DNA of 64,000 bases. It comes from Gramella sp. MAR_2010_147. GTDB lineage: Bacteria > Bacteroidota > Bacteroidia > Flavobacteriales > Flavobacteriaceae. Made by a program: the position numbers and the translations under genes. Below, in pieces: positions 8,343 to 29,413 of the stretch. A model generated the notes under the pieces. That model saw only the letters and a program-made list of their open reading frames with translations, did no database searches and was not told where the DNA came from. Position 1 is the stretch's first letter. Every line of letters begins with the position of its first letter. The stretch covers positions 1,612,001-1,676,000 of the forward strand of contig NZ_LT629741.1 in NCBI RefSeq assembly GCF_900105135.1, in the 5' to 3' direction.

Positions 8343-8443
8343 GGGCGTTGCCTTTCAGGCCGGGCTTTTCGCTTTATCTTTTACCGCTATGCTTCGATAA
8401 ACTCAGCATGCAGGTAAAAGGATGCCGCTGCAATCCCTAACGC
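8343..8443 (-). repeat. Dispersed repeat, family C (copy 1)
   Basis: This roughly 100-base element reads on the minus strand from GCGTTAGGGAT to a segment with AAAGCCCGGCC and AACGCCC. A second copy with the same end sequences but a different middle lies at 27783-27887. The middle of this copy contains a piece resembling repeat family B (CTTCGATAAACTCAGCATG). It sits between metH and metF. Confidence 0.75.
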
Positions 8444-8470
8444 ATTTATTTCTATATACTTTATAAAATC

Positions 8471-8525: not shown

Positions 8526-11261
8526 CTAATCCGCAATATTTGGATTCAGCCACTTTTCTGCCTTTTTGAAATCGATACCTTTTCTTTCTGCAAAATCTTT
8601 CACCTGATCTTCTTTTATTTTTCCAACTCCAAAATACCTCGCTTCAGGATTGGCAAAATAATAGCCACTCACACTGGCCGCCGGCCACATCGCCAGGCTT
8701 TCAGTAAGTTTCACGCCAATATTTTCTTCCACATTCAGTACTTCCCAAATACTCAGTTTTTCAAGATGATCGGGACAGGCAGGATAACCGGGTGCGGGCC
8801 GAATCCCTTTATATGACTCTTTTATTAACTCTTCATTGCTCAAATTTTCATTGGAAGCATACCCCCAATGCTTCGTTCTCACTTCCTTATGCAAATATTC
8901 AGCAAAAGCTTCGGCAAGCCTGTCGGCTAATGCTTTTACCATAATAGAATTATAATCATCGTGATCTTTTTCAAATTCTGCGGCAAGTTCAGCAGTTCCA
9001 AAACCGGTGGTCACACAAAAACATCCCATATAATCCTGGATGCCGCTTTCTTTTGGGGCTATAAAATCTGAAAGGGCGAAATTTGGCTTTTCAGCATACT
9101 TCTTTAATTGCTGGCGGAGTGTTATAAAAACCATCCTTTTCTCCTCAGAAGCTTCTTCATGTTTCACTTCAATATCATCGTGATTAATAGAATTTGCTTC
9201 AAATAAGCCATAAACCGCTTTGGCTTTCAGAAGTCTTTCATCAAGAATCCTTTGAAGTAAAGCCTGAGCATCATCAAAAAGAATTTGTGCCTGCTCACCT
9301 ACTTTGTCATCTTTTAGAATATCGGGATAGCGGCCATGAAGATCCCAGCTTCTAAAAAACGGGCTCCAGTCTATATAATCTGTAAGTTTATTCAGCTCAA
9401 AATTTTCTATAACCTGGATTCCAGGTTTTTTCGGTTTTGTGACCTGAGCTTTCTCCCAGTTGATCTGAAATTTATTTTCCCGCGCCTCGTCAATACTTAA
9501 AAAGGATTTAACCTTACTCCTTTTACTAAAATTCTTTCTGAACTTATCATACTGCTCCTTAAGTTCAATTTTATATTCCTCCCTCGAGTTTTCTTTCATT
9601 AGATCTCCAACCACTGTAACCGCCCTCGAGGCATCATTTACATGAGCCACTGCATGCTTATATTGTGGATCTATCTTTACCGCTGTATGTGCCTTCGAAG
9701 TAGTTGCTCCACCAATCAACAATGGAACAGAGAATTCCTGGCGCTCCATCTCCTTAGCCAGAAAAACCATTTCGTCCAGCGACGGAGTAATAAGTCCGCT
9801 AAGACCAATCACATCTACATTTTCTTTTTTGGCTGTTTCAATGATCTTTTCCGGTGGAACCATTACGCCCAAATCAATGATCTCATAATTGTTACAGCCA
9901 AGAACAACACTTACGATATTTTTACCAATATCATGTACGTCCCCTTTTACGGTTGCCATTAAAACTCGACCAGCCGATTGTCTTTTGCTTGATTTATCTG
10001 CTTCTATATATGGTAATAAATATGCTACCGCCTTTTTCATCACCCGAGCCGACTTTACTACCTGGGGAAGAAACATTTTTCCACTACCAAAAAGATCTCC
10101 CACTACATTCATCCCGATCATAAGCGGACCTTCGATTACGTCCAAAGGGCGCTCCGCTTCCTGCCTGGCCTGTTCTATATCTTCTAAAATATAGGCGTCA
10201 ATTCCTTTAACCAACGCATGAGTGATCCTGTCTTGCAAGGGCTTTTCTCTCCAGGAGAGATCAACTTTATTTTCTTTTTTTCTACCAACCACATTCTCAG
10301 CAAAATCCAGTAGCCTTTCGGTAGCATCTTCCCTTCTGTCGAACATAACATCCTCCACATGCTCCAGAAGATCTTTCGGGATCTCATCATAAACCTCCAG
10401 CATCGATGGATTCACGATCCCGATATTCATTCCAGCCTTGATGGCATGATAAAGAAAAACGGAATGCATCGCTTCTCTCACCGGATTATTTCCGCGGAAA
10501 GAAAAGGAAACATTACTCACACCGCCACTCACACTACAGTACGGAAGATTTTCTTTTACCCACCTGGTGCCTTCAATAAAATCTATGGCATTTCTTTTAT
10601 GTTCATCCATCCCCGTTCCAACCGGGAAAATATTGAGATCAAAAATGATATCTTCGGGAGGAAATTTTACTTTGTTCACCAAAATATCATAAGAACGTCT
10701 TGCAATTTCAATGCGGCGTTCATAATTATCAGCCTGTCCAACCTCATCAAATGCCATCACGATCACCGATGCCCCGTATCGTTTTATTTTTTTTGCATGC
10801 TCTATAAATTCTTCTTCCCCTTCCTTTAAACTAATGGAATTCACCACACATTTCCCCTGTACTACCTGAAGCCCGGCTTCAATAATTTCCCATTTGGAAC
10901 TGTCTATCATTATTGGAACTCTAGCGATATCAGGTTCGGCTACCACTAAATTCAAAAATTTAACCATGGCTTCTTTTCCTTCAATAAGGCCATCGTCCAT
11001 GTTGATGTCTATGATCTGCGCACCATTATCTACCTGTTCCCGGGCAACATCCAGTGCTTCATCAAACTTTTCTTCTTTAATGAGTCGAAGGAATTTTTTA
11101 GAACCGGCTACATTGGTGCGTTCGCCAACATTAATAAAATTACTATCCGGTGTGATCACCAAAGGTTCCAGACCTGATAGTTTTAGAGGTCTAACGGTCC
11201 CTCCCGGCCTCAGTGGGGAGGTGTCTATCTTGTTAATTGAATTTGTACCTGTTGTACTCAT
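8526..11261 (-). CDS. metH: Cobalamin-dependent methionine synthase, folate/B12/reactivation subunit (split MetH, C-terminal part)
   Basis: This 911-residue protein carries MetH modules 2-4: a pterin-binding barrel (about 30-290, [15 protein letters not shown]), a cap domain (about 330-420), a B12-binding domain with the cobalt-ligand motif DVHDIGKN near residue 435, and a C-terminal AdoMet reactivation domain ([12 protein letters not shown] near 825). It lacks the homocysteine-binding module, which is the separate upstream gene. Together they transfer the methyl group from 5-methyl-THF to homocysteine. The 49-base gap to the upstream gene contains part of a family A repeat. Confidence 0.95.
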
Positions 11262-11275
11262 AATTCATAATTTTT

Positions 11276-11358
11276 CGTCACCCTGAACTTGATTCAGGGT
11301 CTCTTATTCTTTATAAATCGGTTGATTGTTGAGATGCTGAAACAAGTTGAGCATGACG
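11276..11358. repeat. Dispersed inverted repeat, family A (copy 3), overlapping a coding end
   Basis: This copy pairs GTCACCCTGAACTTGATTCAG with TGAAACAAGTTGAGCATGAC about 40 bases apart. Its 11311-11358 half lies inside the upstream metH-N gene and encodes its last residues (H-A-Q-L-V-S-A-S and on). The other half forms the intergenic spacer. Confidence 0.85.
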
Positions 11359-12366
11359 TTCTTCTTTGTTTTTTGCAGGGATCGGTCTTGGCTTGTAATC
11401 CTTTGTAATCTCTGCTATTGCTTTAATATGTTTTGGTGTCGTTCCGCAGCAACCCCCAAGGATATTTACGAGGCCTTTTTCCAGGTACTCTTTGATTTGA
11501 GCAGCCATTTCCTGCGCATCCTGATCGTATTCTCCAAATGCATTTGGCAATCCTGCATTTGGATACGCTGAAACTCCCGAATTTGCAAACCGATTTAGAA
11601 CTTCCAGATGTGGAGTCAGCTGCTTTGCTCCAAGTGCACAATTAAATCCAATACTCAACAATGGAATATGTGAAACAGAAATCAGGAATGCTTCCGCGGT
11701 CTGCCCGGAGAGTGTTCTCCCTGATGCATCTGTAATTGTTCCGCTAACCATTACGGGAATATCCGCATCTAATTCTTCCTTAAGTTCTTCGATTGCAAAA
11801 AGAGCTGCTTTGGCATTTAAGGTATCAAAAACTGTTTCCACCAAAAGAACATCCACGCCACCTTCAACAAGAGCTTTTGCCTGTTGTTTATAGGCAATTC
11901 TAAGTTCTTCAAATGAAATTGCTCTATACCCGGGATCATTCACATCCGGACTCATACTGGCTGTTTTGTTCGTAGGACCAATAGCCCCGGCAACAAATCG
12001 TGGTTTTTCAGGATTTTCAGCAGTAACTTCTTCAGCTACCTTTTTAGCGATTCTGGCAGATTCATAATTCAATTCATAGACCAACTCTTCCATTTGATAA
12101 TCGGCCATGGCAATAGTGGTTCCAGAGAAGGTATTGGTTTCAACAATATCGGCTCCGGCATCAAAATATTTACGGTGAATGGTCGCAATCGCCTCAGGCT
12201 GGGTGATGGAAAGAAGATCATTATTTCCTTTCAGAGAAACGGGCCAATCGGCAAAACGTTTTCCGCGGAAATCTTCTTCAGAAAACTTATATTCCTGAAG
12301 CATGGTACCCATGGCACCGTCTAGTATTAATATTTTTTTTGAGAGTAACTCTTCTATTTTTGACAT
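11311..12366 (-). CDS. metH: Homocysteine-binding subunit of split methionine synthase
   Basis: This 351-residue homocysteine S-methyltransferase barrel corresponds to MetH module 1. Zinc ligands are visible: one Cys in [13 protein letters not shown] and two in [11 protein letters not shown]. The N-terminus [12 protein letters not shown] is standard. Module 1 should end shortly after [15 protein letters not shown]; the final residues [14 protein letters not shown] are encoded by a family A repeat and are unlikely to be ancestral. It follows a SAM-I riboswitch, so it is expected to be off when SAM is abundant. Confidence 0.95.
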
Positions 12367-12416: not shown

Positions 12417-12523
12417 GTGTTATCTATCCACAATGATCGTGGTAGAACGTAGCACCTTCTCCCATTACAGGAGGGTTGCCAAGGTTTCACAGGGTCTAAT
12501 CCCTCAACCTTTCTTGATAACGA
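12417..12523 (-). ncRNA. SAM-I (S-box) riboswitch controlling metH-metF
   Basis: The minus strand shows the S-box core in order: TTATCAAGA, GGTTGAGGGA, GACCCTGTGAAACC, GGCAACC, a variable hairpin, GGTGCTACGTTC, and the closing GATAAC that pairs with the opening GTTATC (P1). This is the conserved SAM-binding aptamer. Just downstream (12394-12415) a weak AAGAC/GTCTT hairpin followed by a U-rich run could be the expression platform. The aptamer starts about 28 bases after a TATATTTG promoter box and ends about 50 bases before the metH-N start. Confidence 0.95.
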
Positions 12524-21939: not shown

Positions 21940-22353
21940 CTACACAAACGCAATATCCTCCAAAGTATTTTCACCAAGTACATTGAGAGAAGCATCCCTC
22001 ACCTGAATCATTAAATTATGTACTGAACAGGTCTTCTCATCAGGGCAATCATCACATTTTTCGTAATAATTAAGGCTCACACAAGGAACCATCGCAATGG
22101 GTCCTTCCAAAACCCTTATTACCGCAGTCATTCTAATTTCATTTGGCTCCTTAATCAAATAGTAACCTCCGCCTTTACCCTTTTTGGAACCAAGAAATCC
22201 TGATTTTCGCAACTCCAGAAGAATACTTTCAAGGAATTTCTGCGAAATGTTCTCACTCTCAGATATTTCTGAAGCCTGAACCGGTTTCCTGTCTTTTTTT
22301 CTGGCAATATATGCCAGAGCTTTAATTCCGTACTTGGTCTTTTTAGAAAGCAT
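21940..22353 (-). CDS. Rrf2 family transcriptional regulator (CymR/IscR-like)
   Basis: This 137-residue winged-helix regulator starts MLSKKTKYGIKALAYIA and has the wing segment GFLGSKKGKGGGYYL. Four cysteines lie in a C-terminal cluster (C98 to about C117, in VPCVSLNYYEKCDDCPDEKTC), which could bind an Fe-S cluster or sense redox state. Rrf2 proteins control cysteine metabolism (CymR) or Fe-S assembly (IscR). It lies between the sulfate reduction operon and the methionine operon on the same strand, so control of sulfur genes is the likely role, but no site has been proven. Confidence 0.88.
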   Translation of the reverse strand: MLSKKTKYGIKALAYIARKKDRKPVQASEISESENISQKFLESILLELRKSGFLGSKKGKGGGYYLIKEPNEIRMTAVIRVLEGPIAMVPCVSLNYYEKCDDCPDEKTCSVHNLMIQVRDASLNVLGENTLEDIAFV

Positions 22354-22490: not shown

Positions 22491-23705
22491 TCAACCTAAA
22501 GCCTGTTTTAAATCCTTAATAATATCTTCCACATTTTCAAGTCCTACAGATACACGCACCAATCCTTCTGCAATCCCAGCTGAACTAAGTTCTTCCGGAG
22601 AAAGTTTGCTATGCGTTGTTGAGGCCGGATGCGTCACGATGGTTCGTGTATCTCCCAAATTTGCCGATCTTGTACAAAGCTGGAGCTTATCAATAAATTT
22701 TCTGCCGGCTTTAATTCCTCCCTTGATTTCAAATGCAACCACATTTCCTCCCAGTTTCATCTGTTTTTTTGCAACTTCATATTGAGGATGAGACTTCAAA
22801 AACGGATATTTCACCAATTGAATACTTTTATTCTCCTGTAAAAACTCAGCGACTTTTAAGGCATTATCGCAATGCTTATCTAACCGAACTGCAAGGGTTT
22901 CTAAACTTTTCGAAAGCACCCAGGCATTGAATGGTGAAAGCGCCGGGCCTGTATTTCTACTAAAAAGATAAATTTCCCTTATTAGGTCTTCTCTACCAAC
23001 CGTTACTCCTCCAAGTACCCTTCCCTGGCCATCGATCAACTTTGTTGCAGAATGGATCACTAAATCTGCTCCGAATTTTATAGGATTTTGAAGATAAGGC
23101 GTGGCAAAACAATTATCGATGATAAGAATCAAGTTATATTTTCTGGCAATTTCACCCAGATATTCCAGATCCAGAATATCCACCCCGGGATTGGTTGGGG
23201 ACTCCGCAAACAAAACTTTAGTTTCAGGTTTAATAAGCTCCTCGATCGTCTCAGGCTTATTCACATCAAAGTAACTGTGCGAGATATTCCACTTCGGAAA
23301 ATATTTGGTAAATAAGCCATGGGTAGATCCAAACACCGATCTTGCTGAAACAATGTGATCCCCGCTATCCAGCAAGGCTGCCAGTGTTGAAAAAACCGCG
23401 GCCATCCCGGTTGCAAAAGCAAAACCTGTCTCGGCACCTTCCATCCTCGCGATCTTCTCAACAAACTCAGAAGTATTTGGATTTGAGAATCGGCTATAGA
23501 TATTCCGTTGCTTCTCCTCGGCAAAACTTGCTCTCATATCTTCAGAATCTTCAAAAACATAACTTGAAGTAAGATATAAGGGCACCGAATGCTCCTGAAA
23601 CTGCGTCCTGGCGCTCTGAGTTCTTACCGCAATGGTCTCAAAATTCTCCTTCAAATACCCATTACAGTCTTTTTCATCTTTCCCGATAGCTTGTAGGTTT
23701 TCCAT
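22491..23705 (-). CDS. metZ: O-acylhomoserine sulfhydrylase / trans-sulfuration PLP enzyme (MetZ-like)
   Basis: This 404-residue Cys/Met metabolism PLP enzyme has the PLP lysine in DLVIHSATKLIDGQGRVLGG and the signature THPASTTHSKL. The VLGG and FNAWVLSKSLETL segments match O-succinylhomoserine sulfhydrylases, which make homocysteine from an acylhomoserine and sulfide. A second such enzyme (MetY) is in the same operon, so the two may differ in acyl donor. It follows homoserine dehydrogenase by seven bases. Cystathionine gamma-synthase activity cannot be excluded. Confidence 0.85.
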   Translation of the reverse strand: MENLQAIGKDEKDCNGYLKENFETIAVRTQSARTQFQEHSVPLYLTSSYVFEDSEDMRASFAEEKQRNIYSRFSNPNTSEFVEKIARMEGAETGFAFATGMAAVFSTLAALLDSGDHIVSARSVFGSTHGLFTKYFPKWNISHSYFDVNKPETIEELIKPETKVLFAESPTNPGVDILDLEYLGEIARKYNLILIIDNCFATPYLQNPIKFGADLVIHSATKLIDGQGRVLGGVTVGREDLIREIYLFSRNTGPALSPFNAWVLSKSLETLAVRLDKHCDNALKVAEFLQENKSIQLVKYPFLKSHPQYEVAKKQMKLGGNVVAFEIKGGIKAGRKFIDKLQLCTRSANLGDTRTIVTHPASTTHSKLSPEELSSAGIAEGLVRVSVGLENVEDIIKDLKQALG

Positions 23706-23712
23706 CTCGATT

Positions 23713-24783
23713 TTAATTTAAACGTTCAGAAATTTTCAAAATATCACCAAATACTCCTCTTGCAGTGACCTCTGCTCCGGCTCCGGCTCCGCGAATCACC
23801 AAAGGCAGATCATTATAAGATTCGGTATAGATTTCAAAAATGTTATCGGCTCCTTCTATTTGTCCAAGCACGGATGATTTTGGTTCATTGATAAGTTTTG
23901 CTTCTAATTCTCCACTTACTGCATTTAATTCTCCAATATATCTAAGCACCTCATCTTTAGATTTTTCATCTTTATAACTTTTAAAGTGCGAATCCAGTAA
24001 TCTAGATTTCTTATTGAATTCCTCTAATGTAGTTTCACCGTTAAGTTGCTTCGGAATCAAAGACTGAATCTTTACATCTGTTAGTTCTTTATGTAGTTCC
24101 AGTTCTCTGGCCAGGATCAATAATTTTCGTCCAACGTCTTTTCCGCTTAGATCTATACGGGCATCTGGCTCTGTATACCCTAGTACTCCGGCTTCTTTTA
24201 ATACTTCAGAAAACTCTTTTTCCTCTTCTGAATAGGTATTAAAAATATAGCTCAAGGATCCTGAGAAAACTCCGCGTATCCTGGTCACTTTTTCTCCTGA
24301 AAGATGCAGATTTCTTAGTGTTTCAACTATTGGTAAACCTGCTCCCACATTGGTCTCGTAGATAAATTTCTTATTGTTTTTCTTTAATTCCTTTCTCAAG
24401 GTCTCGTAAAATTCTGAGGACAGCGTGTTGGCAACTTTATTAGCTGCAATAATATGGCTCCCCGAATTTACCAGTGAGATATAGTTTTGCGGAAAATCGT
24501 CACTAGCCGTGGTATCTATAGAAACAAGGTTTTCAAAATTGCTTTCTCTGAAATAGTCTTCAATATCCTTAAAAGAATATCTCCTTGCATCTGATTTAAA
24601 ACCGTTCCAGCCAGATTTAATGCCCTGGGGATTTAATAAGGCATGAGAAGAATCGGCTACCAGTACTATTTTTATCATAATTCCGGAAGCATTCTTTAAA
24701 TGTTCTTCAGAACTTGCAAGTTGCTGTAGCAGCTTACTTCCTACCTTACCCGGCCCAAACAGAGCGAGATGAATCGTTTTCAT
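23713..24783 (-). CDS. Homoserine dehydrogenase
   Basis: It reduces aspartate semialdehyde to homoserine. The 356-residue protein starts LALFGPGKVGSKLLQQL (nucleotide-binding) and has SGSLSYIFN and the signature VLGYTEPDARIDLSGKDVGRKLLILAREL. It lacks an aspartate kinase and a C-terminal ACT domain and resembles the dehydrogenase half of ThrA/MetL. Its start lies 38 bases inside the metX reading frame, and it is followed closely by metZ. This places homoserine supply in the methionine operon. Confidence 0.93.
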   Translation of the reverse strand: MKTIHLALFGPGKVGSKLLQQLASSEEHLKNASGIMIKIVLVADSSHALLNPQGIKSGWNGFKSDARRYSFKDIEDYFRESNFENLVSIDTTASDDFPQNYISLVNSGSHIIAANKVANTLSSEFYETLRKELKKNNKKFIYETNVGAGLPIVETLRNLHLSGEKVTRIRGVFSGSLSYIFNTYSEEEKEFSEVLKEAGVLGYTEPDARIDLSGKDVGRKLLILARELELHKELTDVKIQSLIPKQLNGETTLEEFNKKSRLLDSHFKSYKDEKSKDEVLRYIGELNAVSGELEAKLINEPKSSVLGQIEGADNIFEIYTESYNDLPLVIRGAGAGAEVTARGVFGDILKISERLN

Positions 24784-25759
24784 ATTTTTTTGTTGTTTGT
24801 TGAAAAATTGGTTTTAAAAATCTGTTTAATTGATCTGTTTCGATCAAAAAAGCATCGTGGCCGTGTATGGATTGAATCTCATGAATATTGATATTATCTT
24901 TTATTAATGATAGTTCTACATAGGTATTCCAGTTTTCTTCTGCCAGGAAAAAAAGGTCTGAATTAACTGTTACTATATGAATATCTCCCTGAATTTTACT
25001 TGCGGCTTCCAGGTAATTGCCAGATCCATGGCTGATGTCTATGGTAGTTAGCAAATGATTCATCAGTTTATAAGACTTCAAATTGAACCGGTTACTTAGT
25101 TTTTCACCATGATGTAAAAGCCAATGCTCCACTTCAAAAACCTGATCTTTTGAATTCCTCTTACTCTCAAATTTTTGAGCAAGCGATTGCGGAGTTCGAT
25201 AAAATGTCATGGCATGCATTCTGGCATCGTTTACCGGATTGGAAGAATTATTCAAAATATGATCCTGAATTCTGCAATTGGCTACCAACCAGTCCGTCGA
25301 CTTATAATCAGTTGCAATTGGGATAATATGTTTCGCCAGTTCAGGCTTCAGCACTGCAAGTTCCCAGGCCAGTGCGCCGCCAATACTGCCCCCGATAATG
25401 GCAAAAAGCTTTCTGATATTCAATTTTTCAAGTGCAAGAGCCTGAATCGCGGCAATATCTTTTAATGTAAATTCTTTGTAATTTTCAAAGAACTGGTCCT
25501 TATGTCCTTTGAATCCGTTTCCCGGAATATTAAAAGCCAGTACACAGAATTCATTAATATCTATGCATTTGTTTTCTCCAATAAGTTCCTTCCACCAGCC
25601 TTTTCTTCCCGTGATAAGAGAATTTCCCGTTAATGCATGATTGACCAGAATGATAGGTGCTTCTGTTGAGTTTTTTCCGAAGAATTGATAGCTCAAATGA
25701 ATATCCTGTACTGTTCCTGCAGAATTTTTAAAGTTCTCTATTTTAATTTCTTCAAGCAT
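24746..25759 (-). CDS. metX: Homoserine O-acetyltransferase-like alpha/beta hydrolase (MetX)
   Basis: This 337-residue alpha/beta-hydrolase fold protein has the nucleophile elbow GGSIGGALAWE and ends with a catalytic-histidine segment IHGHDAFLIE, preceded by an Asp-bearing strand (VNSDLFF). These fit MetX, which acetylates homoserine with acetyl-CoA. In the MetX family the elbow is GGSMGG, close to that seen. It is shorter at the N-terminus than many MetX proteins. The operon context (metY, homoserine dehydrogenase, metZ) supports the call. Confidence 0.88.
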   Translation of the reverse strand: MLEEIKIENFKNSAGTVQDIHLSYQFFGKNSTEAPIILVNHALTGNSLITGRKGWWKELIGENKCIDINEFCVLAFNIPGNGFKGHKDQFFENYKEFTLKDIAAIQALALEKLNIRKLFAIIGGSIGGALAWELAVLKPELAKHIIPIATDYKSTDWLVANCRIQDHILNNSSNPVNDARMHAMTFYRTPQSLAQKFESKRNSKDQVFEVEHWLLHHGEKLSNRFNLKSYKLMNHLLTTIDISHGSGNYLEAASKIQGDIHIVTVNSDLFFLAEENWNTYVELSLIKDNINIHEIQSIHGHDAFLIETDQLNRFLKPIFQQTTKKYENDSSRSVWAG

Positions 25760-25868: not shown

Positions 25869-27161
25869 TTAAACCAATGATTTCTTTTGAATTTGAGAAA
25901 AAGCTTCTTTTAGATCTGCTTTGAGATCGCCTACTTCTTCCAAACCGACTGATAATCTTATAAGATCTGGTGTTACCCCGGTTGATCTTTGTTCGTCTTC
26001 CGTTAATTGCTGGTGGGTAGTACTGGCTGGATGAATAATTAGTGACTTCGTGTCGCCAATATTTGCCAGTAGCGAAAATACTTTTGACGCATCTACTACT
26101 GTTTTGGCTGCTTCAAATCCTCCTTTTACTCCAAATGTCACTAGTCCGCTCTGTCCTTCCGGTAAATATTCCTGAGCTAATTGATAGTATTTATTATCTT
26201 CAAGTCCCGGATAATTCACCCACTCCACTTCTTCCTGTTGCTGAAGCCATTTCGCTAGTTCCAATGCATTCTGACTATGTTCCTTAATCCTAATCTTCAA
26301 CGTTTCAAGCCCCTGAATGATCTGAAAAGCGTTAAATGGACTCAAAGCCGCACCATGATCTCTTAGACCTTCAATCCTAACCTTCGCTATAAAAGCAGCT
26401 TCTTCAAGTGCTTCATGATAAACAAGGCCATGATAACCAGGAGATGGTTCTGTAAACTCCGGAAATTTCCCGTTAGCCCAGTCGAACCGACCCGCATCAA
26501 TGATCGCTCCTCCCAGGGAAGTTCCATTTCCGTTAATATATTTCGTCAAGGAATGGATCACAATATCGGCGCCGTGTTCTATTGGATTCAATAGGTATGG
26601 GGTAGCTACTGTATTATCTACAATAAAAGGGACTTTAAATGCCTTCGCTTCTTTAGAGATTGCTTTAAGATCCAGTACATCCAGTTTGGGGTTTCCAAGA
26701 GATTCCACAAAAAAGACGCGTGTATTTTCTTTTGCCGCTTTCGTGAAGTTCTCAGGATTTTGTGGATCTACAAAGGTGGTAGTGATACCGAATCTTGGTA
26801 AGGTGTTTTTTAGCAAATTAAATGTTCCGCCATACAAACTGCTGGATGCTACAATATGATCGCCCGCTTTAAGCAAGGTTAATAAGGCAGTATTAATTGC
26901 AGCAGTTCCTGATGCAGTGACCACAGCCCCAATTCCGCCTTCTATCGCAGCCAGTCGCTGTTCAAGAATGTCGTTGGTTGGATTGTTTAACCTGGTGTAT
27001 ATAAATCCAGGTTTTGCCAGTGAAAAAAGATCTGCAGCGTGATCACTATCGTTAAAAACGTATGAACTTGTTTGATAAATTGGAACTGCTCTGGTTCCGC
27101 CATTCTGAGTGGTATCATGTCCTGCATGAAGTGCTTTGGTTGAAAAATTTTGAGTGCTCAT
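25869..27161 (-). CDS. metY: O-acetylhomoserine aminocarboxypropyltransferase (sulfhydrylase)
   Basis: It condenses O-acetylhomoserine with sulfide to homocysteine. The 430-residue PLP enzyme has the PLP lysine in DIVIHSLTKYINGNGTSLGG and the MetY-type insertion around FPEFTEPSPGYHGLVYHEA, which distinguishes it from the shorter MetZ. It is the first structural gene after two tandem Met-rich leader peptides with terminators, so it is the main target of that control. N-terminus TKALHAGHDTTQNGGTRAVP is standard. Confidence 0.95.
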   Translation of the reverse strand: MSTQNFSTKALHAGHDTTQNGGTRAVPIYQTSSYVFNDSDHAADLFSLAKPGFIYTRLNNPTNDILEQRLAAIEGGIGAVVTASGTAAINTALLTLLKAGDHIVASSSLYGGTFNLLKNTLPRFGITTTFVDPQNPENFTKAAKENTRVFFVESLGNPKLDVLDLKAISKEAKAFKVPFIVDNTVATPYLLNPIEHGADIVIHSLTKYINGNGTSLGGAIIDAGRFDWANGKFPEFTEPSPGYHGLVYHEALEEAAFIAKVRIEGLRDHGAALSPFNAFQIIQGLETLKIRIKEHSQNALELAKWLQQQEEVEWVNYPGLEDNKYYQLAQEYLPEGQSGLVTFGVKGGFEAAKTVVDASKVFSLLANIGDTKSLIIHPASTTHQQLTEDEQRSTGVTPDLIRLSVGLEEVGDLKADLKEAFSQIQKKSLV

Positions 27162-27197
27162 AATTCTAATATTTTTATAAATGAAAATTCTACTAAT

Positions 27198-27236
27198 AAA
27201 AAAGTCCCCCTGATATGCTATTACCAGGGGGACTTT
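27198..27236 (-). terminator. Attenuator terminator 2 before metY
   Basis: A perfect 12-bp stem (27201-27212 with 27225-27236, AAAGTCCCCCTG and complement) is followed by a U run on the minus strand and lies about 40 bases before the metY start. Its loop and 5'-arm boundary (27217-27225) are perfectly complementary over 9 bases to leader RNA 27278-27286 inside the Met leader ORF. Confidence 0.92.
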
Positions 27237-27260
27237 ACGAATTGAACTTTATAACTAGAT

Positions 27261-27356
27261 CTATATTCTCAAGTTTTGGTAATAGCTTGCCATGCGATAC
27301 ATACACATCGCCATCATATTAGACATCATCATATTTGCTATTATTTGAGTTTTCAT
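27261..27356 (-). CDS. Met-rich leader peptide 2 of the methionine operon (31 aa)
   Basis: ATG at 27356 and TAG at 27261 define a 31-residue ORF with nine methionines, including N-M-M-M-S-N-M-M-A-M-C-M. It immediately precedes an intrinsic terminator and metY. Codons 23-26 overlap GCTATTACC, which pairs perfectly with GGTAATAGC in the terminator. A ribosome stalled at the Met cluster (codons 9-22) would leave this segment free to form the antiterminator. No separate promoter is visible, so it depends on transcription passing attenuator 1. Confidence 0.92.
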   Translation of the reverse strand: MKTQIIANMMMSNMMAMCMYRMASYYQNLRI

Positions 27357-27420
27357 TTGTTTAATTTTTAAGACACTTCACTACACTCAGCCTAACATTT
27401 TATTTACTGACTTTAATTTT

Positions 27421-27478
27421 TGTCAAGCTGAACTTGATTCAGTTTCTCAATAGATCCTGAAACAAGTTCAGGATGACG
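27421..27478. repeat. Dispersed inverted repeat, family A (copy 6)
   Basis: TGTCAAGCTGAACTTGATTC and GAAACAAGTTCAGGATGACG form a hairpin located between the two attenuators, inside the transcribed leader. Confidence 0.8.
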
Positions 27479-27511
27479 CTATTTTTTATTTCAACTTAAA
27501 AATGAAGACAT

Positions 27512-27544
27512 AAAAAAAGCCGCTGCGGTTGGCAGCGGCTTTTT
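27512..27544 (-). terminator. Attenuator terminator 1 of the methionine operon
   Basis: A 13-bp GC-rich stem (27514-27526 with 27532-27544, AAAAAGCCGCTGC and complement) ends in seven U residues on the minus strand. Its 5' arm can instead pair with GCAGCG in leader 1 RNA (27579-27584). It lies 20 bases after the leader 1 stop. Confidence 0.9.
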
Positions 27545-27563
27545 GCAATATATCTTTTTCAGT

Positions 27564-27632
27564 TTATGCAATAGTGTGCGCTGCGGAGGCTTCCGGCATC
27601 ATACACATCATATTACAAATTGTTCTGATCAT
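27564..27632 (-). CDS. Met/Cys-rich leader peptide 1 of the methionine operon (22 aa)
   Basis: ATG at 27632 and TAA at 27564 define 22 residues opening M-I-R-T-I-C-N-M-M-C-M-M, with five Met and two Cys codons. It starts 19 bases after an excellent promoter and is followed by a strong terminator. Codons 16-18 include GCAGCG, able to pair with the terminator 5' arm. This is the first of two tandem leader-terminator modules before metY. Confidence 0.88.
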   Translation of the reverse strand: MIRTICNMMCMMPEASAAHTIA

Positions 27633-27650
27633 TTTTTTATTCTTCGTTTA

Positions 27651-27682
27651 CAAAGATAACGACGGACTTTTTTATTTTCCAA
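27651..27682 (-). promoter_or_regulatory. Promoter of the methionine operon leader
   Basis: -33 TTG at 27680-27682 and -7 TATCTTTG at 27651-27658 (exact TAnnTTTG) are separated by 21 bases. The leader 1 ATG follows 18 bases after the -7 box. Confidence 0.8.
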
Positions 27683-27782
27683 GCTTTTGAAGAAGAATTA
27701 TTAAAAATAATTATTTAGCCCATTATTTTAAGAATTTCGAAATTAAAATCGGTTTGTATAGTTAATTTCAAAAAATTTCTTT

Positions 27783-27887
27783 GCGTTAGGGATAGAGTGG
27801 TTTGTTTGAGCTCTCCCGATTTTTTTTTATCGGGAAGCGAGCCGCGAAAGCCCGGCGCTAGCCTGTTTAAGGCGAAGCGCAACGCCC
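27783..27887 (+). repeat. Dispersed repeat, family C (copy 2)
   Basis: It begins GCGTTAGGGAT and ends with AAAGCCCGGC...AACGCCC, as in the copy at 8343-8443. The centre differs and holds a strong hairpin (CTCCCGAT, a T run, ATCGGGA). It occupies the divergent gap between the metY leaders and metK. Confidence 0.75.
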
Positions 27888-27968
27888 AGATCATTAGTAA
27901 ATCATAACTTTTACTTGTTCAACAAATCTTATTAAAACTTCAAATAGGATAAAATGACGTTAAATCAA

Positions 27969-27998
27969 TTTGTCATGATATGAATTTTCATACATTTG
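27969..27998 (+). promoter_or_regulatory. Promoter of metK
   Basis: -33 TTTG (27969-27972), an 18-base spacer and -7 TACATTTG (27991-27998, exact TAnnTTTG). The predicted transcript begins just before the SAM-II-like element. Confidence 0.75.
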
Positions 27999-28008
27999 TG
28001 CTCAACAT

Positions 28009-28076
28009 ATTGAAAGGGATAGATTTGACTGATTGCAACCCTAATATCTAAAGAGGTATTTTAAAATGCTAAAGCA
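28009..28076 (+). ncRNA. Probable SAM-II (SAM-alpha)-like riboswitch of metK
   Basis: The metK 5' UTR contains CTGATTGCAACC followed by AGAGGT and ATGCTAAAGC. These match the SAM-II hallmarks: a UGAUU loop, a CC/GG pseudoknot pairing and a GCUAAA segment. A P1 stem can form from TAGAT (28020-28024) and ATCTA. A pseudoknot from GCAACC with GGT and TGC is plausible. The position directly at the predicted transcript start of a SAM synthase gene supports the call. I cannot score it against the covariance model, and some Env12-type residues differ. Confidence 0.62.
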
Positions 28077-28147
28077 GAATGTTTCTACACTCCAATTAGC
28101 TCTTCACGTCAAATTTTTCCATTTTTATAAACTTAAAAAGGAATTGA

Positions 28148-29413
28148 ATGGCTTATTTATTTACTTCAGAAAGTGTTTCTGAAGGCCACCCCGATAAAAT
28201 TGCAGATCAGATTAGTGATGCCTTACTGGATAATTTCCTGGCGTTTGATGGTGAATCTAAAGTTGCCTGCGAAACCATGGTAACTACAGGACAGGTTGTT
28301 CTTGCTGGTGAAGTGAGAAGCAACACCTATCTGGATGTTCAAAATATTGCCCGCGACGTGATCAATGATATTGGTTATACTAAAGGCGCCTATAAATTTA
28401 GCGGTGATTCCTGTGGGGTCATTTCATTAATCCATGAACAATCCCAGGATATTTACCAGGGGGTAGATCGTGGAAAAAAAGAGGAACAGGGTGCCGGCGA
28501 CCAGGGAATGATGTTTGGTTATGCCACCAACGAGACTGAAAATTATATGCCTCTTGCGCTTGACATTTCGCACAAGATCCTTATTGAACTTGCTAAATTA
28601 AGACGTGAAGGCAAGGAAATAGAATATCTGAGACCCGATTCTAAAAGCCAGGTGACTATTGAATATAGCGATGAGAATGTTCCAGAAAGAATTGTGGCAA
28701 TTGTAGTTTCTACTCAGCATGATGATTTTGATGCAGATGACGAAAAAATGTTGGCGAAGATCAAAAAAGATATTATTGAAATTTTGATTCCGAGGGTAAA
28801 AGAGCAGCTACCAGACTATGTTCAGAAATTATTTAATGATGATATTGTATATCATATTAATCCAACCGGGAAATTTGTAATAGGTGGACCTCATGGTGAT
28901 GCAGGACTTACTGGTAGAAAGATCATCGTGGACACTTATGGAGGCAAAGGTGCACATGGAGGTGGAGCATTTTCAGGAAAAGACCCATCCAAGGTAGACC
29001 GTTCTGCCGCCTATGCTTCCAGGCATATTGCTAAGAATCTAGTGGCTGCAGGCGTAGCTCCGGAAATTCTGGTTCAGGTTTCGTATGCAATTGGAGTGGT
29101 TGAGCCAACATCTATTTCAGTATATACCTACGGAAAGAAAAACACAGATTTAAGCGACGGGCAAATTGCTGAAAAAGTAAAAGAGATTTTTGATATGCGT
29201 CCCGCTGCTATTGAAGACAGGTTGAAACTTAGAAATCCTATTTACCGGGAAACTGCGGCTTACGGCCATATGGGAAAAGAGCCCCGGAAGATCACCAAAA
29301 TTTTTGAAAGCCCTTACAAAGGAAAAATCACCAGGGAAGTGGAGTTATTTACCTGGGAGAAGCTTGATTATGTAGATAAAGTGAAAGAAGCAATATCGAT
29401 CAACGAGAACTAA
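28148..29413 (+). CDS. metK: S-adenosylmethionine synthase
   Basis: It makes SAM from methionine and ATP. The 421-residue protein has the N-terminal [21 protein letters not shown], the signature [12 protein letters not shown], and [19 protein letters not shown]. It is a single-gene unit with its own promoter, a SAM-II-like 5' UTR and a strong terminator. It stands divergent to the methionine operon. Confidence 0.98.

Follow-up and report, generated by a model that had tools for sequence, protein, structure and literature searches.

Amino acid operons can be controlled by ribosome-mediated attenuators, of which the trp, his, thr, phe, leu and ilv leaders are known examples. For methionine genes the textbook forms of control are SAM riboswitches, T-boxes and MetJ. 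A leader that reads Met is awkward in principle, because every open reading frame (ORF) starts with Met and starvation therefore also hits initiation. The two candidate leaders analyzed here, upstream of a metY gene, are like the classical attenuators in that each combines a short ORF, whose cognate codons cluster at the switch, with protector, antiterminator and terminator hairpins. They are unlike them in using the Met codon, in standing as two units in series and in belonging to Bacteroidota.

As presented in PMC3641672, the Salmonella mgtCBR leader is a single RNA with two short ORFs and attenuation-like control that answers two different signals, ATP and proline-tRNA; it is contrasted there with metE, which has two intrinsic terminators. 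The metY leader would share with mgtCBR, as outlined in that text, two short ORFs in one RNA and attenuation-like control, but both of its ORFs are Met-rich, each has its own intrinsic terminator, and the placement of Cys differs between them. The tandem SAM and B12 riboswitches of Bacillus clausii metE, in the account of the same paper (PMC3641672), likewise put two serial terminators before a methionine gene; they are aptamers, whereas metY uses leader peptides, and the pairs of Met leader and SAM-I reported below mix both kinds. Leader-peptide attenuation is noted in the main text of PMC9723704 for amino acid operons of Flavobacterium psychrophilum, a member of the same bacterial family whose record in our set (L051) matches the models of both leaders; the word methionine is absent from that main text, and metY is possibly in the supplements. 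In Actinobacteria, according to the text of PMC1262725, Cys-rich leader peptides lie upstream of cys operons. They share with the metY leaders the sulfur amino acid codons near the end of the short ORF, but that text gives no terminator for them; for the methionine operons of Actinobacteria it reports no conserved upstream RNA structures. Exchanges between a riboswitch or T-box and a leader peptide at one gene are described in PMC2965389, where methionine leader peptides do not appear to be among those presented and the terms "Bacteroidetes" and "Flavobacteri" are absent from the main text. The class of mechanism is thus known; for a Met leader-peptide attenuator, a same-signal tandem or a pair of leader and SAM-I, no earlier description was found in open-licence PMC full text, a body to which subscription papers and supplements do not belong.

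The window analyzed is a stretch of 64,000 nucleotides from Gramella sp. MAR_2010_147. The promoter, two leaders, two terminators and metY of the original prediction are all present on its minus strand (Table 1), where they follow one another in the order promoter, leader 1, terminator 1, leader 2, terminator 2, metY, between metK and metY. Leader 1 has 5 Met and 2 Cys in 22 residues, leader 2 has 9 Met and 1 Cys in 31, and the two rank first and second by Met fraction among the window's 404 short ATG ORFs (15–45 aa). Set against how often Met occurs in ten window genes, the Met contents of leaders 1 and 2 have binomial probabilities of 5e-4 and 4e-8, respectively. A terminator scan of 1.1 kb returned 4 sites against 0.6 in shuffles, namely terminators 1 and 2, a sub-hairpin of terminator 1 and its plus-strand mirror. 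An Rrf2-family regulator gene (21940-22353, minus strand) lies downstream of the metZ-like gene; its match to the CymR model is below the cut-off. The spacer between terminator 1 and leader 2 (about 27475-27360, minus strand) is repeat-like, ATCCTGAACTTG...TTCAGGATCTA; some Christiangramia species have it and others are without it.

Table 1. Features of the metY region (positions in the window; distinct units are those aligned in the present work)
Feature	Position	Strand	Basis
Promoter, Bacteroidota type, TTG-N21-TATCTTTG	27651..27682	-	sequence; motif conservation
Promoter sub-elements: TTG, 21-nt spacer, TATCTTTG	TTG 27682-27680; TATCTTTG 27658-27651	-	
Leader peptide 1, MIRTICNMMCMMPEASAAHTIA	27564..27632	-	47 distinct units aligned
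Leader 1 region 1 (TGTAATA), 5' arm of protector hairpin with 27573-27567	27611..27617	-	92.7% of cells paired
Leader 1 region 2a (GCAGCG), antiterminator strand within the ORF	27579..27584	-	100% of cells paired with 27537-27532
Leader 1 region 2b (TATTGCA), partner of region 1 in the protector or, via TTGCA, of 27547-27543 in the antiterminator	27567..27573	-	
Leader 1 region 3, TGCAA and 5' arm of terminator 1 (CGCTGC)	27532..27547	-	
Terminator 1	27514..27544	-	terminator scan; 99.4% of cells keep pairing
Leader peptide 2, MKTQIIANMMMSNMMAMCMYRMASYYQNLRI	27261..27356	-	70 distinct units aligned
Leader 2 region 1 (TAATAGC), can pair with GCTATTA 27286-27280	27337..27343	-	sequence of the window; forms in the ribosome-free full-length fold
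Leader 2 region 2 (GCTATTACCA), antiterminator strand	27277..27286	-	93.2% of lettered cells paired with 27226-27217
Leader 2 region 3 (TGGTAATAGC), loop and top of 5' arm of terminator 2	27217..27226	-	pairing counts, folding
Terminator 2	27201..27236	-	terminator scan; 97.5% of cells paired; both-side changes at 7 of 9 pairs
metY, O-acetylhomoserine sulfhydrylase	25869..27161	-	TIGR01326 above cut-off
metX-like homoserine O-acyltransferase	24746..25759	-	best NCBIfam matches are MetX models, below cut-offs
Homoserine dehydrogenase (hom)	23713..24783	-	model matches below cut-offs
metZ-like, O-succinylhomoserine sulfhydrylase kind	22491..23705	-	510 bits against a cut-off of 522
SAM-II riboswitch before metK	28009-28082	+	
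SAM-I riboswitch before metH-metF	12417-12523	-	

Known RNA elements were searched for in the same region. No Rfam family reached its gathering score over the leader region: Thr_leader scored 26.1 of 55 bits and Phe_leader 20.4 of 55, and no T-box match was found there. SAM-I and SAM-II were discarded as candidates for the leader region, with nothing at the gathering score and, in 26900-28300, nothing up to E=5 except the SAM-II of metK. A genome-wide search with the pattern ATGATGTGYATG was dropped as well, since it found 3 places against 2 for the reversed control. The remark that methionine genes are usually under riboswitches holds within this very genome, which has SAM-I before metH-metF and SAM-II before metK; with the metY leaders, three kinds of methionine control therefore lie within about 16 kb. 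The MetH methionine synthase of the window is split into two ORFs (8526-11261 and 11311-12366, minus strand), the homocysteine-binding part and the rest, and a Flavo-1 RNA, of unknown function, lies between the metH and metF genes (8354-8451, minus strand).

We consider it highly probable (roughly 0.87) that metY, metX, hom and metZ are read from one promoter through two consecutive trp-type attenuators with Met leader peptides, a reading built on sequence comparison and computed folds. The ribosome would trail RNA polymerase through each short leader ORF. When charged tRNA-Met is scarce it would stall in the Met run and leave region 2 free; region 2 would then pair with the 5' part of the terminator, and the polymerase would read through. 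With plentiful Met the ribosome would cover region 2 and the terminator would form. Since both gates must be passed, the response should multiply. We infer translation of the leaders, termination, read-through, Met as the signal and the multiplication.

Loci of metY were collected from 59 related genomes (40 matched, 30 loci kept) and, as the best 80 of 576, from named genomes. They cover Christiangramia/Gramella, Salegentibacter, Gillisia, Mesonia, Salinimicrobium, Flavobacterium, Winogradskyella, Aquimarina and others. Covariance models R1 and R2 were built for leaders 1 and 2, respectively. A Met-rich ORF with a terminator precedes metY in 89 of these 110 loci (the 30 and the best 80 of 576), giving 141 units, with some species represented twice. 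By rule, the leader-bearing loci, those of the best-80-of-576 set included, comprise 52 with both leaders, 33 with leader 2 only (L051 among them, though R1 matches leader 1 there with 89 bits) and 4 with leader 1 only (L005, L006, L032 and L034, yet a leader-2 ORF is present in all four and R2 matches L032 and L034). The second units of L045, L047 and L049 had been sorted as leader 1 and were reassigned to leader 2 by eye. L052, in which the rule counts a leader 2 and R1 scores 69.9 bits, was doubtful and was omitted from the leader-2 alignment and folding counts; L010 and L036 are contig ends. Conservation among relatives had been set beforehand as one of the points on which the original prediction, two serial Met leader-peptide attenuators, would turn. 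Leaders and terminators stand before metY in several genera, their Met codons lie in frame and their antiterminators match, and this supports the core reading of that prediction.

At E<=0.01, R1 gave weak matches (about 33–48 bits) in most of the 59 genomes, which were treated as noise, and E<=1e-6 or 1e-5 was used thereafter. Within the window's genus, 23 of 24 genomes have a single strong R1 match, and in the genome of the window the sole strong R1 match is the metY locus. In 249 genomes spread evenly over the family, R1 was found in 17 (16 of 236 genera) and R2 in 12 (11 of 236) at E<=1e-6. Among 395 genomes of the phylum, at E<=1e-5, there were 22 with R1, all within the window's family, and 22 with R2, two of which (G312 and G548) lie outside it.

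The pairings required by such a switch are present in the window. For leader 2 the proposed 9-bp antiterminator match is perfect, and a tenth base pair adjoins it (27286-27277 with 27226-27217). For leader 1 the proposed 6-bp match (27584-27579 with 27537-27532) turned out to be half of a two-part antiterminator, the other half of which pairs 27571-27567 with 27547-27543 (TTGCA/TGCAA). The shares of paired cells in the alignments of both leaders are listed in Table 1; for antiterminator half 2b the share is 71.8%. A pair of region 2a changes from C-G to A-U in 11 of 47 leader-1 rows, which may be a single event within one clade, and in L022 and L023 region 2b reads ATTACA in place of ATTGCA, with region 3 matchingly TGTAA. 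By these alignments there appear to be some compensatory changes in the antiterminators, but few. Cells paired and covariation scores beat all or all but one of 500 shuffles, a control that ignores relatedness. The number of pairs changed on both sides is unremarkable for leader 1, as 59 of 500 shuffles reach that of the protector and 142 of 500 that of the antiterminator. The sliding control leans toward structure drawn from a member of the set.

Tails were also shuffled and the antiterminator duplex recomputed. The mean z was -2.25 for leader 1 and -2.85 for leader 2, and 27 of 47 leader-1 units and 44 of 70 leader-2 units reached p<=0.05; for the window alone, leader 1 was non-significant (p=0.19) and leader 2 gave p 0.01. 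In leader 2 of the window the antiterminator spans just the top of the terminator stem and the loop, and a pseudoknot in which the lower stem forms nonetheless is conceivable.

The RNA of region 2a (GCAGMG) is kept across shifted reading frames in leader 1 (SAAH, SPQR and others), and that of leader 2 region 2 is kept in L107 and L118 despite the frame, with APPAIAKK versus the usual RYCQN. Such retention of RNA while the peptide tails shift frame argues against peptides that act in trans as Met/Cys-rich metal binders, followed by ordinary terminators. Met and Cys are, as a matter of general knowledge, common metal ligands, but the computed switch point coincides with the end of the Met run, and the units precede Met/Cys genes and alternate with SAM riboswitches, so that we hold a trans-acting peptide to be very improbable.

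The proposed switch was modelled by folding the RNA downstream of the ribosome, up to the terminator loop, with the leading edge of the ribosome assumed to lie 13 nt from the A-site codon. For leader 1 of the window the computed probability (P) of the antiterminator is 0.96–0.97 at codons 6–12, codon 12 being the last Met, and 0 from codon 14. For leader 2 the value is 0.91 at codon 22, the last Met, or 0.73 by a coarser measure, and 0 from codon 23. Among the relatives P>=0.5 is reached at the last Met in 46 of 47 leader-1 and 64 of 70 leader-2 units, the antiterminator being absent at that codon in 6 of the 70, and none reaches it at the stop codon. Region 2 starts 8–23 nt past the first base of the last Met codon preceding it (15 and 8 nt in the window). 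When the window RNA is folded at full length, the terminator invariably prevails (P 1.0), and the switch must therefore be kinetic.

Folded without a ribosome, leader 2 is in the antiterminator state in 59 of 70 units, i.e. gate 2 is mostly open. This could be cited in favour of a sensor that responds generally to slow translation, or to failed initiation (fMet-tRNA), and not to Met-tRNA charging in elongation. Such a general sensor would need no Met codons ending at the switch, and ribosome-free leader 1 is mostly closed, 13 of its 47 units having an antiterminator with P>=0.5; we judge a sensor of this kind quite unlikely. Given the ribosome-free difference, the folds suggest that the two gates may differ in how they handle failed initiation.

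The placement of codons agrees with sensing of Met in elongation. In frame, ATG makes up 0.198 of codons in leader 1 and 0.229 in leader 2, against 0.000–0.009 in the other frames. Of 197 internal Met codons in leader 1, 196 come no later than the switch codon, where 116 would be expected from an even spread; for leader 2 the figure is 429 of 440 (322 if evenly spread). The suggestion that Cys and Met might be sensed separately is not supported in the form in which it was put. In leader 1 the Cys codons occupy the sensing position, 87 of 89 coming no later than the switch codon, but in leader 2 they are not concentrated there (189 of 284, expected 211), and Cys as a signal in both leaders is thus not supported for leader 2. 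Cys sensing by leader 1 is possible, judging from codon position. We regard as tentative, and as clearly short of an even chance, the alternative in which the attenuators are the same but at least gate 1 would sense Cys besides Met and act as a sulfur amino acid gate. It draws on the enrichment of Cys over ten window genes (10.9-fold in leader 1, 17.8-fold in leader 2), on the position of 65 of 69 Cys codons at or before the switch in units of a distant order described below, and on a leader-1 unit, MMLFVCNMCCMMWKNPQSISIA, that precedes a cysE-cysK-siroheme synthase-cysJ-cysI operon (L150, 1073-7961) upstream of the tandem leaders of metY. TGY codons, however, occur about as often in the +1 frame (0.099 per codon in leader 1, 0.111 in leader 2) as in frame (0.089 and 0.146), unlike ATG, and part of the Cys excess is therefore a by-product of RNA letters. 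Conservation of the letters TTGCC in the RNA can account for the Cys codons that fall within region 2 of leader 2, and some units, such as leader 1 of L046 and L055, keep Met without Cys.

The arrangement in series was assessed from promoter motifs. TTG-N17-21-TANNTTTG stands before leader 1 in 36 of the 52 two-leader loci (shuffle expectation 0.4) and between terminator 1 and leader 2 in none of the 52. For F. psychrophilum the -7 consensus given in the text of PMC9723704 is TAnnTTTG. Because the motif precedes leader 1 but not leader 2, the gates would act in series, the same polymerase most likely passing both. That no second promoter is visible, as first stated, needs to be qualified: a sigma70-like TTGACA-18-TAAAAT (11/12 match) is found between the window leaders (27426-27397), but it is not conserved, and the TANNTTTG motif is missing from that interval in every two-leader locus. 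A sigma70 promoter before leader 2 was accordingly rejected, such a match being present in only 2 of 52 loci (shuffle expectation 0.7).

This sigma70-like match bears on the alternative of a single working gate, in which leader 2 would be active with leader 1 a relic, or leader 2 would have a promoter of its own. Before metY, in the stretch fetched, the best 80 of 576 named loci include 34 that match R1 and R2, 30 that match only R2, 1 that matches only R1 and 15 that match neither, and the R2-only loci fit a single gate, although in some Flavobacterium leader 1 may lie beyond the fetched 3 kb. It does so in L152 (240-3276), where a leader-1 unit precedes a gene for a TonB-dependent receptor, itself upstream of leader 2 and metY; a separation of this kind also speaks for one gate, and, as judged by eye, leader 2 of Flavobacterium may have its own promoter. 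Both units nevertheless keep their pairings and Met codons and, given also the lack of a conserved promoter before leader 2, a single gate seems unlikely to us.

Two serial Met gates are not the only arrangement at metY. The 21 leaderless loci of the 110 have SAM-I (18) or SAM-II (1, L029) directly upstream, and the remaining 2 are contig ends (L025, L053; 383 bases). No SAM-I was found before metY in the window or in the 35 named leader-bearing loci (of 89) that were scanned. A quick tree of metY was drawn with 81 rows, of which 80 were labelled by leader/SAM-I state; that state needs 2 changes on the tree, in which support is weak at many forks. L067, a contig labelled as a Bifidobacterium breve MAG, falls inside Flavobacterium on this tree and is probably mis-binned. 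At one metX locus of the window's family, L132, leader 1 precedes a SAM-I.

The R2 matches in G312 and G548 led to a distant order, in which 57 of 116 genomes have the same metY (E<=1e-120). The loci of 42 of the 57 genomes were read, with repeated upstream regions dropped (60 loci, 42 distinct). Of the 42 loci, 28 have leader units before metY. Six (L158-L162, L171) carry a tandem of Met leaders together with two terminators, and 17 carry a Met leader with terminator followed by SAM-I; of the rest, 5 have a single leader without SAM-I, 13 have SAM-I alone and 1 (L165) has neither, the Rfam scan covering 40 of the 42 loci and leaving out L159 and L162, both tandem. A stall-dependent antiterminator is computed for 33 of 34 leader units, and for none at the stop codon. 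With one shuffle per tail, units with P>=0.5 at the last Met fall from 24 to 8 of 32, two of the 34 having been excluded for too short a tail. Upstream of the leader the promoter motif is present in 4 of the 6 tandem loci and in 10 of the 17 mixed ones (shuffle expectation 1.5 for the mixed ones); between the gates it is present in 0 of 6 tandem and 0 of 16 testable mixed loci. Terminator and tail sequences differ between the window's family and the distant order; the leaders of the two lineages may have a common origin or may have converged.

We think it somewhat more probable than otherwise that metY of Bacteroidota is controlled by a modular series of two gates, the first a Met-tRNA leader and the second either a Met leader or SAM-I. 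The mixed form would be an AND gate, in which the operon opens only if Met is short in translation and SAM is short as well, so that two pools belonging to one pathway would be read together.

Leader units are not confined to metY. Besides the cysE operon, they precede metX (L153, L154) and, in L151, a metZ/metY superfamily gene that is split between two ORFs; Met-rich short ORFs within long genes or on the opposite strand were not counted as leaders in the search for such targets. From these neighbourhoods sulfur amino acids appear to be the theme common to the targets. In Flavobacterium a second pair with the same RNA scaffold lies downstream of hom (L061 6045-6182, L071 5867-6184, L069 5977-6289 and others). 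In the best 80 of 576 named loci it scores 34–56 bits with R2 in 32 and 38–63 bits with R1 in 9. This pair has few Met codons, its leader 2 has a conserved ALICV-like stretch, and SAM-I or metX comes next in the loci read; it may have been retargeted to other amino acids or be in decay. In L061, L057, L071 and L099 the stretch from terminator 2 to metY contains a small ORF of about 55–65 aa with an SLLF/SLLL...Y motif near its end, and in L071 a similar small SLLF/SLLL...Y ORF is found behind the second pair.

Loci with one gate, two gates and mixed gates constitute a natural set for measuring serial logic. If the proposed reading is true, attenuators and riboswitches would be exchangeable modules at one gene, and the cell could tell too little Met for translation from too little SAM.
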